In this document: one piece after another, positions 57,809 to 63,593 of the stretch | Numbering within the stretch: position 1 is the first letter of the stretch | Layout: the number at the start of each line of letters is the position of its first letter | Origin: Oscillospiraceae bacterium | GTDB taxonomy: Bacteria > Bacillota > Clostridia > Oscillospirales > Oscillospiraceae | DNA: 64,000 nt | Assembly (NCBI GenBank): GCA_902790375.1 | Contig: CADARY010000015.1 | Span: forward strand, 61,868 to 125,867 | Direction: 5' to 3' | The notes under the pieces: generated by a model | Told to the model about the DNA's origin: nothing | Database searches by the model: none | The model's input: only the letters and a program-made list of their open reading frames with translations | Program-made: the position numbers and the translations under genes

Positions 57809-57921
57809 TATGACCGCAATATTACAAAGTTGGAGGCGCTTTCCCCGCTTCTCCGGATAATCTGCGAGACATTAAGATTTATTCAGATTATTTCGGTGCG
57901 TTTTGTAATATTACGGTCATA
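57809..57921. repeat. Long inverted repeat upstream of the LysM peptide gene
   Basis: Arms of 20 bp (57809-57828 tatgaccgcaatattacaaa; 57902-57921) match with one mismatch around a 73-bp middle. It could be the remains of a small mobile element or a stem in the leader of the gene at 58021. No further copy was noticed in the window. Confidence 0.6.
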
Positions 57922-58020
57922 TTCGGTATGCTATGCTTATGCCATGTTCGGCAAGCTGCGTTATGAAACATCATGCAAGGCTGAAAGCAAACAACAAAAA
58001 CATAAAAAGGAGATCAAAAC

Positions 58021-58266
58021 ATGTCTGACGAAGTGAAAGTCCTCAACGAGCAGGAAGCTGCAAACGTAGCCGGCGGCGCGGCCCATGCCAACGGCCAGTA
58101 CTGGAGCGACGGCGGCGCGACCTACTACCGCATCGCCCCCAACGACTATCTCGGCAACATCGCCCAGATGTTCGGCACCAGCCCCTATGCCATCCAGCAG
58201 CTCAACCCCGGCAAGATCAAGAATATCGACGTGATCCGCGCCGGCGACGTGATCCGCGTCCGGTAA
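58021..58266 (+). CDS. Small protein with double-glycine leader and LysM domain
   Basis: The protein is 81 aa with AAAGGAG SD. Residues 1-19, MSDEVKVLNEQEAANVAGG, have the layout of a bacteriocin-type leader ending in Gly-Gly (18-19): acidic, with hydrophobic residues spaced before V-x-GG. The rest (about 33-81) is one LysM domain (YYRIAPNDYLGNIAQMFG, IQQLNPGKIKN, AGDVIRVR) that would bind peptidoglycan or chitin-like glycans. Cleavage after GG by a peptidase-domain ABC exporter is inferred; none is in the window. A homologous leader occurs on the protein at 60695. It is followed by a terminator-like hairpin. Confidence 0.75.
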   Translation: MSDEVKVLNEQEAANVAGGAAHANGQYWSDGGATYYRIAPNDYLGNIAQMFGTSPYAIQQLNPGKIKNIDVIRAGDVIRVR

Positions 58267-58278
58267 TGACGCCCTTGC

Positions 58279-58319
58279 AGCACCGGGGAAGCTGTCGGAC
58301 AGCCCCTCGGTGCTCGTTT
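58279..58319 (+). terminator. Terminator after the LysM peptide gene
   Basis: Long imperfect stem (agcaccg-ggg-gctgtc / gacagc-ccc-cggtgct) followed by cgttt. Partial read-through to the next gene is possible. Confidence 0.6.
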
Positions 58320-58399
58320 GCAGCAGGAACTCCGGCAATAATATCTGCCCATTCTGTCATGGCCGCATCAAATCATGGTAAGAGAAAGGAGAAAATAAT

Positions 58400-60583
58400 A
58401 TGAAAAAGCTTCTCGCAATCGTACTCGCGCTGTGCATGCTGTTCTCGCTGGGTATTGTCGCCCACGCGGACGAGCATGATCACGATCATGAAGTAGCAAA
58501 CGGCGTCGGCGAGCAGATCAAGTTCCTCGCGGGCCGCTTCGCCGATCTCGAGCAGAAGGACGACGGGAACACCTGGCACTACGCTGTCACGGATCTCGAC
58601 CACAACGGCCGCCTGGAGCTTCTGGCCACCTGCCGGGACAAGCTGGGCCTCAACTGGCTGAGAGCATGGGAGATCAGCCCCAACGGTGCAACGCTCATCA
58701 GCTGCACGCAGAATACGATCCCCGCTCCCATCGGCTCGGATAAGAAAACCATAACGGCTGACGGCATGCTCCTGAACCTGTACAGCAACAGCGTCGATAC
58801 CTGCTATGACAAGGACAGCAATACCTATTGCTATCTGTTTAAGGACGTTGCGGAATACACCGCGACGGAGGCCACAAAGATCATGACGCCCGGCGGGGAC
58901 GCGATCGCCATTGCGGTCAGCAGTGACGTCGTCACCACCGGCGTGGGTGCTGCCGCCCTGAAAAACGGCAGCATGGAGCCCAGCATCATGCTCGGCAGCT
59001 GCACCACCTGGAGCGAGGGCGACGGCGATCTCAAGGTATACTGCCGCAACGGCAAGGGCGAAACGATCACCATGGATGAATTCCTGACCCTCGGCGTAAG
59101 CAGCTTCAAGGACCTTCCCCACTTCAACACCGCCTTTGACTGGTTTACCGCCGACGAGGCCGGCATGCTCCAGCGCTTTGTGGACAGCTATGCCACCTTT
59201 GACGGTGTGCGCGACGCGGACAACGCCGAGGGCGGCGTCGCCTTCACGGCCTCCCAGAGCGCCGGCGGCGTCTACATCACCAAAAATCCCACCGACGAAA
59301 AGCACAACGAGGGCCAGACGGCGGAATTCATCGCCAACGCCAACATCTATGACGACGTGACCTGGACCTTCGTCGCTCCCGACGGCAGAACCTACACCGT
59401 GGACGAAATCAGAAACCTCGGCGGTGAGCTTGAGGGCATCAAGACCGGCGACCTGAAGATCAAAAACGTCAAGACCAACATGAACGGCTGGGGCGTGTTC
59501 GCCACCTTCGATTACCGCGGCGCCTCCGCCAGAACCTCCACCGCCTACCTCTATGTCTGGGCTGGCGGCAGCACGAGTGACCTGTCCGCAAAGATCGACG
59601 AATTTTACAGAGTCAAGCCCTGGCTCAACGGTGTCTGGACCTGCCCGAAGTGCAGCGCGGCGGTCTCCGGCTCCCAATGCTGGAACTGCGGCTTTAACCC
59701 CGTCTCCTTCTATGCGATCTACTACGGTGTGACGCCCACCGGCTATGACTGGTACTACGGTCTGAACGGCCAGACCCCCGTCAACACCATCACGCCGAAC
59801 CCGTATGTCGGCGTCCTTGCCTGGATCTGCCCCATCTGCGGGGAGAGCACCCAGAACGCCGTTACCTGCTGGAACTGCGGCTATCACTACGGCGATCCCG
59901 TTTATCTCCCCGCGCACCCGACCTCCGGCACCTTTGCCTGGACCTGCCCGGTCTGCGGCGAGGGCAACCAGGATGTCATGGACTGCTGGAGCTGCGGTTA
60001 TCATTACGGGAATCCCGTCGGGTACAACGACCCTGCCTGGAACACCTACCGCGAGGCGCTCATGGGCGCAGACCTGATCGCCTGCTGGTTCTGCGGCCAG
60101 TACTTCAACAGCGACTATGACTGCTGCCCCTACTGCGGCAGCTATCCGGGCGGCGGCAACTTCTATGGCGAAATCATGAGCGATCAGTACAACGAGCTGA
60201 TGCAGGGCGCGACCCTGATCACCTGCTGGAGCTGCGGCCAGGCCTACAACAGCGATTATGATACCTGCCCCTACTGCGGCAACTACCCGCAGAGCGGCCC
60301 GACCTGGGTGGATGAGGTCGACTCCAACCAGCTCAGGGAGGCCATCCAGGGCGCCACGATGATCACCTGCTGGAACTGCGGGCGCGATTACAACTATGAC
60401 TATGATTCCTGCCCCTACTGCGGAAGCTATCCCCACACCGCCTCTGGCCTGCCGAGCGCGGTAGTCACCGGAAACCAGATCTCCGAAGCCTACCAGGGCG
60501 CGACCATGATCCAGTGCGCCAGCTGCGGTCAGTTTTTCAACTCCGATTACGACAGCTGCCCCTACTGTGGCTGGATGCCCTGA
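58400..60583 (+). CDS. Secreted His-rich protein with seven tandem zinc-ribbon units
   Basis: The protein is 727 aa from ATG 58400 (AAAGGAG SD). A signal peptide (about 1-23, ending AHA) is followed by DEHDHDHE, a likely metal-binding His cluster. Residues about 35-400 form an unassigned region with an EF-like DLDHNGRLELL (VCBS/dockerin-like) early on and a beta-rich Ig-like part later (WTFVAPDGRTYTVDEIRNLGG). From about 412 come seven double-CxxC ribbons: three of type CPxC-CWxCG and four of type CWxCGxxxNSDYDxCPYCG spaced about 50-55 residues apart. Zinc ribbons are usually cytosolic; here they are predicted outside the cell. Function unknown. Confidence 0.75.
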   Translation: MKKLLAIVLALCMLFSLGIVAHADEHDHDHEVANGVGEQIKFLAGRFADLEQKDDGNTWHYAVTDLDHNGRLELLATCRDKLGLNWLRAWEISPNGATLISCTQNTIPAPIGSDKKTITADGMLLNLYSNSVDTCYDKDSNTYCYLFKDVAEYTATEATKIMTPGGDAIAIAVSSDVVTTGVGAAALKNGSMEPSIMLGSCTTWSEGDGDLKVYCRNGKGETITMDEFLTLGVSSFKDLPHFNTAFDWFTADEAGMLQRFVDSYATFDGVRDADNAEGGVAFTASQSAGGVYITKNPTDEKHNEGQTAEFIANANIYDDVTWTFVAPDGRTYTVDEIRNLGGELEGIKTGDLKIKNVKTNMNGWGVFATFDYRGASARTSTAYLYVWAGGSTSDLSAKIDEFYRVKPWLNGVWTCPKCSAAVSGSQCWNCGFNPVSFYAIYYGVTPTGYDWYYGLNGQTPVNTITPNPYVGVLAWICPICGESTQNAVTCWNCGYHYGDPVYLPAHPTSGTFAWTCPVCGEGNQDVMDCWSCGYHYGNPVGYNDPAWNTYREALMGADLIACWFCGQYFNSDYDCCPYCGSYPGGGNFYGEIMSDQYNELMQGATLITCWSCGQAYNSDYDTCPYCGNYPQSGPTWVDEVDSNQLREAIQGATMITCWNCGRDYNYDYDSCPYCGSYPHTASGLPSAVVTGNQISEAYQGATMIQCASCGQFFNSDYDSCPYCGWMP

Positions 60584-60617
60584 CCGGCTTGTGATACTTC
60601 TGTGACGAACGTCATGG

Positions 60618-60623
60618 TATGAT
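60618..60623 (+). promoter_or_regulatory. Extended -10 promoter element before the SH3-type peptide gene
   Basis: TGG-TATGAT lies 72 bp upstream of the GTG start at 60695; the -35 region is weak. It suggests a separate transcript for the small gene. Confidence 0.45.
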
Positions 60624-60694
60624 GATCGCACAGCCAGGGAAGAATACAGAAAGAAACAAAACGATAGATTAAAAATCGGAAAGGAGACAGAACC

Positions 60695-60958
60695 GTGTCT
60701 GAAAAAGAAATCATCAAGGATCGGGAGCTTGAAAACGTGAGCGGCGGCGAAGGCCGTATCGTCAACACCGGCGATTACAGAGACGCCGCGATCAGAAGCT
60801 ATCCCGGCCTGAACGCCCCGGTTGTCGCATCCCTTCCCAACGGCACGATGGCGAATACGACCGGAAACTTCATGCAGGCCGACGGTCGCAACTGGGCGGA
60901 GATCGACTACCCGGTGCGGGGCTGGATCAAGGGGAGCATCCTCGGTTACGCCTGGTAA
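60695..60958 (+). CDS. Small protein with double-glycine leader and SH3-like domain
   Basis: The protein is 87 aa, GTG start with AAAGGAGAC upstream. Residues 1-18 read MSEKEIIKDRELENVSGG; ELENVSGG is a near-consensus double-glycine leader end. The remainder resembles a bacterial SH3 (SH3b) domain: AAIRSYPGLNAPVVASLPNG, ADGRNWAEIDY, RGWIKGSILGY. SH3b domains bind cell-wall peptides. With the LysM protein at 58021 it forms a pair of leader-bearing small proteins aimed at the cell wall. A terminator follows. Confidence 0.75.
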   Translation: MSEKEIIKDRELENVSGGEGRIVNTGDYRDAAIRSYPGLNAPVVASLPNGTMANTTGNFMQADGRNWAEIDYPVRGWIKGSILGYAW

Positions 60959-61025
60959 TAAGCGGCAGTGTAAATTCGCAATGCAGATATGCGCGCACCG
61001 CGAAATAAACAAAAGACTGAGAATC

Positions 61026-61070
61026 CGTACAGACGCTGCACCTCTGCGGCGCCTGTACTGGTTCTTTTTT
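61026..61070 (+). terminator. Terminator after the SH3-type peptide gene
   Basis: Imperfect stem (gtacag-cgc-gca / tgc-gcg-ctgtac) followed by tggttctttttt. Confidence 0.75.
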
Positions 61071-61111
61071 ATGCGGGCTGATTTGTAATAGTGTGGTGAT
61101 ACTGAATGTGG

Positions 61112-61117
61112 TATAAT
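61112..61117 (+). promoter_or_regulatory. Extended -10 promoter of the two-component genes
   Basis: TGG-TATAAT at 61109-61117 with a weak -35; transcription would start near 61124, just before the response regulator SD. The GTG at 61132 is possible as a start but is less well placed than ATG 61159. Confidence 0.6.
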
Positions 61118-61158
61118 TATATTTTAGACGAGTGAAAGAAGAAAAGGGTGAGGGAGAC

Positions 61159-61971
61159 ATGAAGATCCTGCTTGTAGACGACGAGGCCGGTGCCCTGCGG
61201 GATTTGCTCCGGGTGATGGAGAAGGCCGCGCCGGGCGATGAGATCGTGACTGCCAGAGAGTCAAAAGCCGCGCTCTCGCTGTGCGGGGAGCAGCGCTTCG
61301 ACGTTGTGTTCCTGGACATCAAAATGCCGGACATGGACGGCCTGACGCTGACCTCGGAGATCAAACGGATCTGCCCGATGACCAATATCATTATCGTGAC
61401 GGCGTATCCGAATTTCGCCCTGGACGCGCTCAGGCTCTATGTCAGCGACTATATTCTGAAGCCCGCAAGGCCGGAGGACGTGAGACAGGCGCTCTTTAAT
61501 CTGCGGCATCCGGTCAGCGATACAAGGAAGGGGCTTTATGTCCAGTGCTTCGGGCATTTTGAGGTCTTTTATGACGGCCAACCCGTTCGCTTTCGCCGTA
61601 CGAAGGTCAAGGAGCTGTTCGCTTACCTGATCGACCGGAGGGGCGCGTCAGTGACCAATACGCAGCTCAGAGCCATCCTCTGGATGGACGAGGTCAGCGA
61701 GGACGAAAAGCAGAGAAAGTATTTCGCCCAGCTCATCCATGAACTGCAAAACTGGCTGGAGGAACGTGAGCTCTCCGACATCTTTATACACAGACGGGAT
61801 TCCTATGCCGTCGCGCCGGAAAAGATCGCCTGCGACTATTATCGCGCCCTCGCCCTTGACGCCCGCGCGCTGTCCATGTACCAGGGGGAGTATATGTGCC
61901 AGTACGAATGGGCCGCGTACCGGGACATGACGAACGAGGGCCTGCTGAATAAAATCGGGATTATGCCATGA
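61159..61971 (+). CDS. Response regulator: receiver plus SARP-type winged-helix output
   Basis: The protein is 270 aa from ATG 61159 (GGGAG SD). The receiver domain (1-120) has the acidic pair DDE (7-9), phospho-acceptor D53 in FLDIKMPDMDG and the Lys in LKPAR. The output (about 128-220) begins CFGHFEVFYDGQPVRFRRTK followed by LFAYLIDRRGASVTNTQL and LW, the winged-helix form seen in SARP-type activators, with a short C-terminal region in place of a full BTAD domain. It is translationally coupled (ATGA overlap) to the sensor kinase downstream. Targets are probably the neighbouring secreted genes, by inference from position only. Confidence 0.85.
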   Translation: MKILLVDDEAGALRDLLRVMEKAAPGDEIVTARESKAALSLCGEQRFDVVFLDIKMPDMDGLTLTSEIKRICPMTNIIIVTAYPNFALDALRLYVSDYILKPARPEDVRQALFNLRHPVSDTRKGLYVQCFGHFEVFYDGQPVRFRRTKVKELFAYLIDRRGASVTNTQLRAILWMDEVSEDEKQRKYFAQLIHELQNWLEERELSDIFIHRRDSYAVAPEKIACDYYRALALDARALSMYQGEYMCQYEWAAYRDMTNEGLLNKIGIMP

Positions 61972-63593
61972 AGATGACGGTGAAAAAGAAATCCCTGCTC
62001 GTCAGGGTGACGGCCATCGCGCTTGCGCTGGGGGTCGCCGCCATGCTTCTGAGCGGGGCTGTGCTCTACAGAATCTTTCACGAGCGGGCTTTGGCAAACG
62101 TGGAAAAGAGGCTGGATGAAGTCTCTGTTTTGCTGTATCCGCTCGTCAAGCATCAGAGCCTTGACTGGCTGCTGTCCTATTGGCAGGAGCACTGGGAGGA
62201 AATGGAGCTGCCCCCGTTTCACGACATGGACACATACATGAAATGGGCGGAGGAGCGCAGTGAATTTGAGCGTCTGAATGTCACCGCGCTCACGGCGGAG
62301 GCGCTTCGGGAAATGCCTGCGCAGCGCCAGCGCTATTTTGCGGAATACTGTTACCTTGAAACCATGCTTGCGCTGATCGTGAATCGCAGCCATGTGGGCG
62401 TCGATGTGATTTCCTGCTTTATTCCGAACGCATCCGGAGAGGGCGCCTTTGCCGTCTTTCTGAGCACGGCTGAAGACACAGGCTTTCTGGAACAGCGCAT
62501 GGTCCTGGGCGACGCATGGGACTTTCACGCGGCGGAGCACCCGGAGGCCATGGCGCTCTGTGAGCAGGACTACCCGCTTGATACCGGGACCGAGGTTTAT
62601 CGTTCCCCGAAGGACGGAATCGAGTACGCGAGCAAATATTCGCGGATCGGTATCGATCACAGGGCCCTTTTCGCAGTCTCCGTATCCATGCAGGAGATGC
62701 GGGAAGAGATCCGGTCGGATGTATGGAGCTTTGAAAAATGGGTCGCCCTGATCATCCTCGCCGCGATCCTGACCATGCTCTATATGATCTATCAAAGCTC
62801 GCTGAAGCCGACGCTGACCCTCGCCCGGGATATCCGCGCCTATACGGGGGACAAGTCGGCGAAAAAGCTGTCCGACGCTCTGGAAAGTCTGATCGGCCGC
62901 GGGGATGAGATCGGTATGCTGGCGGGCGACATTCGGGACATGGTGGAGCAAAACGAGCTGTATTACCGGCAGAAGCTCGAAAACGAAGCGCTGACAACAA
63001 AGCTCCTGCTGGCGCAGATCAAGCCGCATTTTATCTACAACTGCCTGGCGGTCATCCGCTCCTGTATCGACGAGCCGCAGAAAGCGGAGGAGGCCCTGAA
63101 TCATTTTGCGGGCTTTTTGAGAGGGAGCGTGGACATGCTGGAAGAGACGGCGTGCATCCCGGCGGATCGGGAATTCAAGACGGTGGACGACTATCTCTAC
63201 ATGCAGAAGCTGCGCTTCGAGGATCGGCTGAACATCGTAACGGATTATCGGGACAGAAGCTTTTTCATACCTGCTTTTTCGCTGCAGATGCTGGTTGAAA
63301 ACGCCGTGGAGCACGGGATCAGCGGAAGCAAAGATTTGCGTGGAACCGTATGGATACGGAGCTTCGAGGAAGACGGCTTCCATGTCGTCGAGGTGGAGGA
63401 CAACGGGGCCGGGATACCGCCGGAAAAGCCCGTAGGATCAGAAGAGGATCAACGGCTTCACGTCGGACTCCGGAACGTCGAAAAGCGCCTGGAGTGGATG
63501 TGCCGCGGAACGCTCACGATCCGGAGCCTGGAAGGCAAAGGCACCGTGGCGGTGATTCGTATTCCAAGTCATAGCCAGCCTTTGAAGCTGTAA
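61968..63593 (+). CDS. LytS/YehU-type sensor histidine kinase
   Basis: The protein is 541 aa. A first transmembrane helix (about 13-33), an extracytoplasmic domain of about 215 residues with no known name, and a second helix (about 260-280) precede a HAMP-like linker. The His_kinase domain has AQIKPHFIYNCLAVI (phospho-His about 353) and the ATPase part has LQMLVENAVEHGI (N box) and VEDNGAGIPP (G1), followed by GLRNVEKRLEW. These are hallmarks of the LytS/YpdA class that pairs with LytTR or SARP-like regulators. It probably senses an envelope or peptide signal. Confidence 0.88.
   Translation: MKMTVKKKSLLVRVTAIALALGVAAMLLSGAVLYRIFHERALANVEKRLDEVSVLLYPLVKHQSLDWLLSYWQEHWEEMELPPFHDMDTYMKWAEERSEFERLNVTALTAEALREMPAQRQRYFAEYCYLETMLALIVNRSHVGVDVISCFIPNASGEGAFAVFLSTAEDTGFLEQRMVLGDAWDFHAAEHPEAMALCEQDYPLDTGTEVYRSPKDGIEYASKYSRIGIDHRALFAVSVSMQEMREEIRSDVWSFEKWVALIILAAILTMLYMIYQSSLKPTLTLARDIRAYTGDKSAKKLSDALESLIGRGDEIGMLAGDIRDMVEQNELYYRQKLENEALTTKLLLAQIKPHFIYNCLAVIRSCIDEPQKAEEALNHFAGFLRGSVDMLEETACIPADREFKTVDDYLYMQKLRFEDRLNIVTDYRDRSFFIPAFSLQMLVENAVEHGISGSKDLRGTVWIRSFEEDGFHVVEVEDNGAGIPPEKPVGSEEDQRLHVGLRNVEKRLEWMCRGTLTIRSLEGKGTVAVIRIPSHSQPLKL

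Follow-up and report, generated by a model that had tools for sequence, protein, structure and literature searches.

Two very small genes in a 64,000-nucleotide stretch of DNA from an Oscillospiraceae bacterium raise the question of why a double-glycine (GG) leader should precede a LysM or an SH3-like domain, and by which transporter such proteins would leave the cell. The whole stretch, called the window throughout, covers positions 61868-125867 of contig C15 of the source genome G000 and reaches the contig end; G000 is a draft of 3.1 Mb in 95 contigs and is 88.6% complete (G, C and L numbers are our handles for genomes, contigs and loci). The genes lie in a locus at 58021-63593, which is probably a satellite cassette of an OmpR/SARP-type regulon of peptidoglycan-binding mini-proteins (minis) exported by an NHLM-type C39 ATP-binding cassette (ABC) transporter. 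An original prediction, made from the letters of the window, had proposed leader-directed export of wall-binding domains under the control of a LytS-type kinase. This interpretation is supported. The system is much larger than the window locus, with its exporter likely encoded on another contig and the large secreted protein of the locus, P3, as a recurrent member.

Genes and products of the window locus

The locus comprises the following features.

58021-58266, forward strand: GG-leader LysM mini-protein gene, 81 aa, ATG start; leader 58021-58077, core from 58078
58337-58381, forward strand: 3' remnant of a GG-leader mini zinc-ribbon gene, last codons only; the gene is whole in L049, L050, L051 and L061
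58400-60583, forward strand: gene of P3, a large Sec-type secreted protein with a signal-peptide-like start, a His cluster and zinc ribbons
60695-60958, forward strand: GG-leader SH3-like mini-protein gene, 87 aa, GTG start
61132-61971, forward strand: response regulator gene, receiver plus winged-helix (OmpR/SARP-like) output; alternative ATG start at 61159
61968-63593, forward strand: LytS-type sensor histidine kinase gene, overlapping the regulator gene by 4 nt

The double-glycine code consists of a hydrophobic residue at -12, E at -8, L at -7, V at -4 and G at -2 and -1 (PMC12184118; all PMC numbers given here refer to excerpts of those articles). Both mini-protein open reading frames (ORFs) were found at the predicted coordinates, each preceded by AAGGAG, and their leaders agree with the code at six of six positions in the SH3 gene and at five of six in the LysM gene, which has A at -7. 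The LysM core is well supported (PF01476, E 2e-9, 37.7 bits, cut-off 20.9). The predicted SH3 core stays below the cut-off in the window protein (PF08239, 21.3 bits against 27) and exceeds it in the homolog of the relative L071 (28.0 bits). The window minis did not pass the bacteriocin models PF10439 (14.6 bits against 27.1) and TIGR03949 (12.2 against 21.5), and bacteriocin core and leader models likewise gave nothing but sub-cut-off leader matches in the relatives scanned. Up to E 1, the window minis matched no nitrile-hydratase-like or Nif11-like leader model, and by reading, the MAM leader pattern MMMPANx(8,11)VxGG is absent from both leaders. Compared with L061, the two genes gave nonsynonymous and synonymous divergences of dN 0.032, dS 0.239 and dN 0.117, dS 0.542, and on these values they look to be under purifying selection.

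The secreted protein between the two minis was described correctly: P3 has a Sec-type start, the His cluster DEHDHDHE and a conserved VTDLDHNG region, followed at 59642-60571 by seven CxxC...CxxC zinc ribbons by reading, of which Pfam gives five DZR stretches. Between the VTDLDHNG region and the ribbons lies a stretch recognized as Ig-like by reading, with no Pfam match. The LytS-type kinase at 61968 was confirmed by a His_kinase/HATPase match. Its partner had been predicted to be of SARP type. The receiver domain is clear (E 2e-22) and the winged-helix match is weak (E 0.16; above the cut-off in two of five homologs), and the BTA half was not detected in the window regulator or the five homologs. 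About 200 bp of the mini zinc-ribbon gene are gone at 58337-58381, which could be a real deletion or a fault of the metagenome-assembled genome (MAG). Like cassettes are present in the Ruminococcaceae MAGs L049, L050 and L051 and in G027 (L061). All four of these loci have a divergent gene 75-82% identical to the L,D-transpeptidase-like protein of C35, which matches YkuD.

A likely exporter and a family of leader-bearing candidate cargoes

The search for a C39 exporter, proposed along with the original prediction as a test of it, found two C39 peptidase ABC transporters in G000, on contigs C8 and C20. The two subunits of the C8 exporter pass the NHLM models, ABC1 with 931.2 bits (TIGR03796, cut-off 853.3) and ABC2 with 741.4 bits (TIGR03797, cut-off 709.4); ABC1 of two relatives scored 915.9 and 924.1 bits with TIGR03796. 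The C39 motifs of the C8 exporter carry the expected Q, C, H and D (residues according to PMC12184118). A GG-leader peptide with a core of no known type follows the exporter genes. The C8 exporter groups with others of its genus in a clade of 21 exporters, drawn from 20 genomes (support 95/96). Short GG-leader peptides without a known domain, in contrast to the wall-binding minis, stand directly after ABC2 at L033 14759-15007 and L053 2896-3201.

The exporter on C20 fails TIGR03796 (826.5 bits). It was set aside as the cognate transporter, being outside the clade linked to GG minis, even though a GG-LysM gene lies 11 kb away. Its surroundings (L035 7144-18434), which encode this second C39 exporter pair together with a LanM-like enzyme, a radical-SAM-like protein and a short GG peptide, are likely a lanthipeptide-type locus by gene content.

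A comparison of gene neighbourhoods, also proposed earlier, showed that the orthologous exporters of relatives cluster with GG-LysM genes, GG-CW_7 genes, P3 homologs and regulators, next to one another in several genomes. The gene order shared by L057 and L059 runs from regulators, STAS, HlyD-like protein, ABC1, ABC2, GG-LysM and a DUF218-type protein through a 169-aa protein, a regulator and a P3 homolog to additional GG-LysM and GG-CW_7 genes. L057 also encodes an M15 D-Ala-D-Ala dipeptidase in addition to its STAS and DUF218 proteins, the Pfam names being those of L057 only, and much of this order is retained in L054, L058 and others (tblastn). In G019, G023 and G030, P3 homologs carry the beta-rich core of the GG proteins as a C-terminal arm (E 3e-9 to 4e-15), behind Sec-type or lipobox-like starts (by reading). 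Zinc ribbons likewise occur both on P3 proteins (window, C35, L058, L082) and as GG minis. Since these domains leave through Sec in P3 and, seemingly, through C39 as minis, we argue that both forms would act outside the cell.

The search for wall-binding minis in G000 found 13 GG-leader genes on 10 contigs in total: eight LysM, two CW_7, one SH3, one beta-rich and one zinc ribbon. These are the five core types of the genus, LysM occurring in three kinds. The GG-CW_7 cargo matches PF08230 with 97 bits. The beta-rich domain is about 120 aa long (examples are L054 9065-9517, L057 19321-19743 and L123 1480-1923). The one copy scanned had no Pfam match, and PDB profile searches with this domain and with the N-terminal region of P3 found nothing better than E 0.5. 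The beta-rich domain is present in 33 of 37 same-genus genomes, and its GG form in seven, all of which have the exporter clade.

The leader itself is conserved; with a C39 exporter present as well, the prediction withstood both refuting conditions open to computation. Among 35 genome-wide matches of the LysM protein, 32 have GG, one is a GA variant, one is leaderless (G044, from another family) and one was not inspected. This count is independent evidence for leader conservation, unlike the invariant GG of the alignments, whose rows were mostly picked by the leader pattern. Of 30 LysM-protein loci, 18 were placed by tblastn and 12 by reading the sequences. The hydrophobic residue at -12 occurs in 64 of 65 tabulated mini leaders, although our GG-ORF filter imposed -7, -4, -3 and GG and did not impose -12. 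The GA ending belongs to L005 (G031:C50), a LysM-A relative, and the LysM protein at L079 12322-12702 has two GG-leader-like motifs in tandem ahead of its core.

Linkage of cargo and exporter was examined by density and by co-occurrence. With one and the same filter, the DNA around C39 genes (480,181 bp) yielded 46 GG ORFs and the control DNA (474,000 bp) yielded 7, a difference that is partly selected because 9 of the 31 C39 regions had been fetched for a nearby LysM gene. On inspection by eye, three of the seven control ORFs (L094, L096, L110) resemble genuine GG minis, and some among the 46, L092 for instance, appear spurious. These counts, together with the signs of purifying selection in the two window genes, speak against the GG-leader ORFs being a chance finding. 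The 37 same-genus genomes comprise 21 C39-positive and 16 C39-negative ones. Leader-bearing LysM matches occur in 20/21 and 0/16 of these, respectively (Fisher 1.3e-9, ignoring kinship), a count that is genome-wide but whose model was built from exporter/LysM loci. G021, the one exception, is a draft with 67% completeness; four Fisher tests used 19 exporter genomes, and G021 joined afterwards. Strong P3 copies were present in 17 same-genus genomes, all with the exporter clade, the line (E below 1e-99) having been drawn after the matches were seen.

An order-wide sample of 295 genomes from 149 genera, in which G000 alone represents its own genus, was then compared. Outside G000, CW_7 matches begin at model position 27 or later and LysM matches at position 11 or later, with the GG at 18-19 of the LysM model; a GG leader was absent from all 19 order-wide LysM loci fetched. 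Leader-bearing forms occur in 33 of 61 genomes of a larger genus sample. Because the order-wide matches start late or show no GG leader, the forms with a leader appear confined to this genus at the sensitivity used.

Direct repeats upstream of the mini-protein genes

Many GG minis are preceded by 11-bp direct repeats with an extended -10, TGTGAC-N5-TGTGAC-N11-TAnnnT, which we call the class I repeat. Removal of identical proteins reduced the 96 minis to 94, and a further thinning for identity of the upstream sequence left 87. This set still contains at least one evident fragment of an ABC transporter (L085 8081). The controls were 611 genes minus four GG ORFs. The class I repeat was found ahead of 45 of the 87 distinct minis and 5 of the 607 controls; in 20 rounds of single-base shuffling, the mean was 0.0 of 87. 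The gap to TAnnnT is 11 in 45. Of the five control genes with the repeat, two belong to the clusters (a P3 homolog and the 169-aa gene that precedes a regulator); the other three are not known members. Control DNA of 417 kb contained three occurrences, two of them ahead of GG minis.

The window holds one class I match, on either strand and with up to one mismatch, and two copies of a second repeat, GTnATA-N5-GTnATA-N10-TAnnnT.

60590-60623, forward strand: putative class I operator/promoter, TGTGAT-N5-TGTGAC-N11-TATGAT, before the SH3 gene
57905-57937, forward strand: putative direct-repeat operator, GTAATA-N5-GTCATA-N10-TATGCT, before the LysM gene
61085-61117, forward strand: putative direct-repeat operator, GTAATA-N5-GTGATA-N10-TATAAT, before the response regulator gene

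The second repeat stands in the window at the LysM and regulator genes only and has no occurrence in the 417 kb of control DNA. Among the 611 control genes it precedes the window regulator and its L049 ortholog only, and among the minis the LysM genes of the window, L049 and L051 only. The core of the LysM-gene repeat is also found in L049, L050, L051 and L061. As the LysM and regulator genes share this window-unique 11-bp repeat, the predicted regulation gains support in cis, and the regulator may control its own gene through the putative operator at 61085-61117. The kinase itself would drive the regulators, as suggested by the adjacency of the genes. Direct repeats of 11 bp beside a -10 would also fit other OmpR-type regulators.

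A mirrored copy of the LysM-gene repeat core lies on the opposite strand at 57809-57825. The two cores are held in the arms of a 33-nt inverted repeat (57796-57828/57902-57934, 85% complementary) before the LysM gene, and in four relatives the divergent L,D-transpeptidase-like gene stands on the far side of this inverted repeat. A terminator suspected by eye between the SH3 and regulator genes was not reported by a generic promoter/terminator scan and is not claimed here; the yield of the scan was about equal to that from shuffled sequence. A further pattern, TCTTAA..TGGACA..TATAAT, was seen upstream of four G000 minis (L035 2675, L038 7661, L113 1492, L117 1441). We do not claim it, as it precedes 5/96 minis (two being the same gene) and 3/611 controls with two mismatches allowed.

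Proposed mechanism and alternative explanations

The mechanism that we infer from the computed leaders, cores, exporter, clusters, co-occurrence and repeats runs as follows. Regulators driven by LytS-type kinases would act on the 11-bp direct repeats, which would replace the -35 box, and turn the scattered mini-genes on. The minis, each with one peptidoglycan-binding, zinc-ribbon or beta-rich domain behind a GG leader, would be made in the cytosol. The leader would bring the protein to the C39 domain, cleavage would take place after the GG, and the core would be threaded out by the NHLM-type exporter of C8. LysM and SH3 families bind peptidoglycan. The ligand of CW_7 is a peptidoglycan unit (PMC5705596). 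Once folded outside, LysM, CW_7 and SH3 cores would hold the cell's own peptidoglycan, with the Sec-exported P3 as a scaffold beside the wall-bound minis. The job of the system would most likely be to build or shield the wall, which fits because D-Ala-D-Ala dipeptidase, L,D-transpeptidase-like and DUF218 genes are neighbours.

Several points weigh against this proposal. It rests on data derived from DNA. The window locus has no exporter gene, and the SH3 gene was not found in the L049 cassette. The class I repeat is missing from 42 of the 87 minis and was not found before the exporter operon in 19 of 19 clusters tested; the LysM gene of the window bears the second repeat, not class I. The HlyD-like partner stays below TIGR03794 (cut-off 156.2 bits) with 30.0 bits at C20 and 26.5 at L053. 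The Fisher values overstate the association because the genomes are related. P3 matches that are weaker or partial extend to 36 of the 37 same-genus genomes, and G028, which has no C39 gene, has a P3 match at E 1.9e-53. AlphaFold2 models were of low confidence, with a predicted local distance difference test score (pLDDT) of 41 for P3 residues 24-395 and 46 for the SH3 protein.

The main rival is antagonism, in which bacteriocin-like minis would attach to the walls of competing cells and inhibit growth or hydrolases. The bacteriocin-export names of the exporter families and the many variable paralogs would suit such a role. We nevertheless consider it unlikely: no catalytic domain was found in the scanned cores, the minis are single genes spread over 10 contigs, and those inspected by eye showed no recurring partner next to them (a systematic search was not made). 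The companions in the L057 cluster, a wall enzyme and a scaffold-like secreted protein, also speak against it. A different setting for wall binding would be the spore envelope, with the set working in cortex or coat building. LysM is known from spore coat proteins (a TIGR02899 match, below the cut-off), a GG-CW_7 gene (L135 10189-10515) follows spoVAD/spoVAE-like genes in G000, the exporter lies about 1 kb from spoVAD in G027 (G027:C6 102146-104549), and spoVAD of G034 has a GG-LysM match about 3 kb away (G034:C139 1471-5825). SpoVAD is, however, present in 51 of 60 genomes, many of them without the exporter, and was not found in the exporter-bearing drafts G010, G015, G020 and G024 (72-93% complete). 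With spoVAD and C39 on one contig in G027 only (other spo genes were not searched), a sporulation role is improbable, somewhat more so than antagonism.

Two further explanations concern what the leader and the kinase do. Exported minis might be wall-bound signals that report the state of the wall to the LytS-type kinase; the proximity of kinase and regulator genes to minis and the repeat common to the LysM and regulator genes would favour this. No evidence for a receptor was found and the cores belong to wall-binding families rather than short pheromones, which makes signalling very unlikely. That the GG N-terminus is no export leader at all and the proteins remain inside is hardly credible given the leader code, the linkage and co-occurrence with the exporter and the wall-binding cores, even though cleavage here is a prediction from sequence. 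Export of wall-binding minis by the NHLM-type transporter accordingly stays our preferred explanation.

Relation to known systems

The nearest precedents are MAM/PCAT and EbfG/PteB. Faecalibacterium duncaniae, the source of MAM, belongs to the same order as the organism studied here. MAM is a GG-leader protein for which export by a C39 ABC transporter (PCAT) was proposed from modelling, and by proteomics it is the most abundant envelope protein (PMC12184118). The likeness lies in the pairing of a GG-leader protein with a C39 ABC transporter. However, MAM is one helical protein, and the words LysM and SH3 are absent from the excerpted text of PMC12184118. Here, many LysM, CW_7, SH3 and zinc-ribbon cargoes are accompanied by a two-subunit NHLM exporter, the P3 scaffold candidate and direct-repeat promoters. 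In Synechococcus elongatus several small GG-motif proteins, EbfG1-4, need the C39 transporter PteB, and a surface (biofilm) role was shown by mutation (PMC4997328). That system is cyanobacterial, and the excerpt mentions no LysM or CW_7 core.

ABC1 and ABC2 of G000 resemble the NHLM/NHLP systems (TIGR03796, TIGR03797, TIGR03794) in passing the model cut-offs. They differ in a third subunit that is short, HlyD-like and below the cut-off where tested, and in short GG leaders and wall-binding cargo. The CW_7 repeat is the same as in the Cpl-7 endolysin, where it aims a phage lytic enzyme, whereas here it stands alone behind a GG leader (PMC5705596). SARP operators of Streptomyces likewise have direct repeats with an 11-bp spacing immediately ahead of the -10, with a reported gap of 8 bp compared to 9-11 bp here, depending on the bounds of the repeat (PMC10936776, PMC5930380). 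Unlike the Streptomyces SARPs, the regulators here have a receiver domain, belong to a clostridial lineage and gave no detectable BTA half. Our searches of open-access papers brought up nothing that we recognized as GG leaders on LysM, SH3 or CW_7 cargo, and the excerpts of PMC3482391 and PMC9159523 do not join LysM with C39 or double-glycine export.

The C39 exporters found here are named for bacteriocin export, and their neighbours therefore tend to be read as antibiotics. The peptidoglycan-binding cargo in this genus suggests that exporters of this kind have a part in building or protecting the envelope as well, in line with what was proposed for MAM. In its widest form, which we hold in even balance, our proposal is a dedicated surface-protein pathway: an NHLM 'bacteriocin' exporter would have been turned into a general exporter of single-domain wall binders, run by a genome-scattered 11-bp-repeat regulon, with cargo domains that can be swapped with the arms of a Sec scaffold, to give a modular peptidoglycan coat. 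With the class I repeat, the remaining members of the regulon can be sought, and the combination of GG leader, wall-binding domain and 11-bp repeat can be tested in any cultured member of the genus. The findings hint that the bacterial surface may be built or defended in a way that has not been described before.

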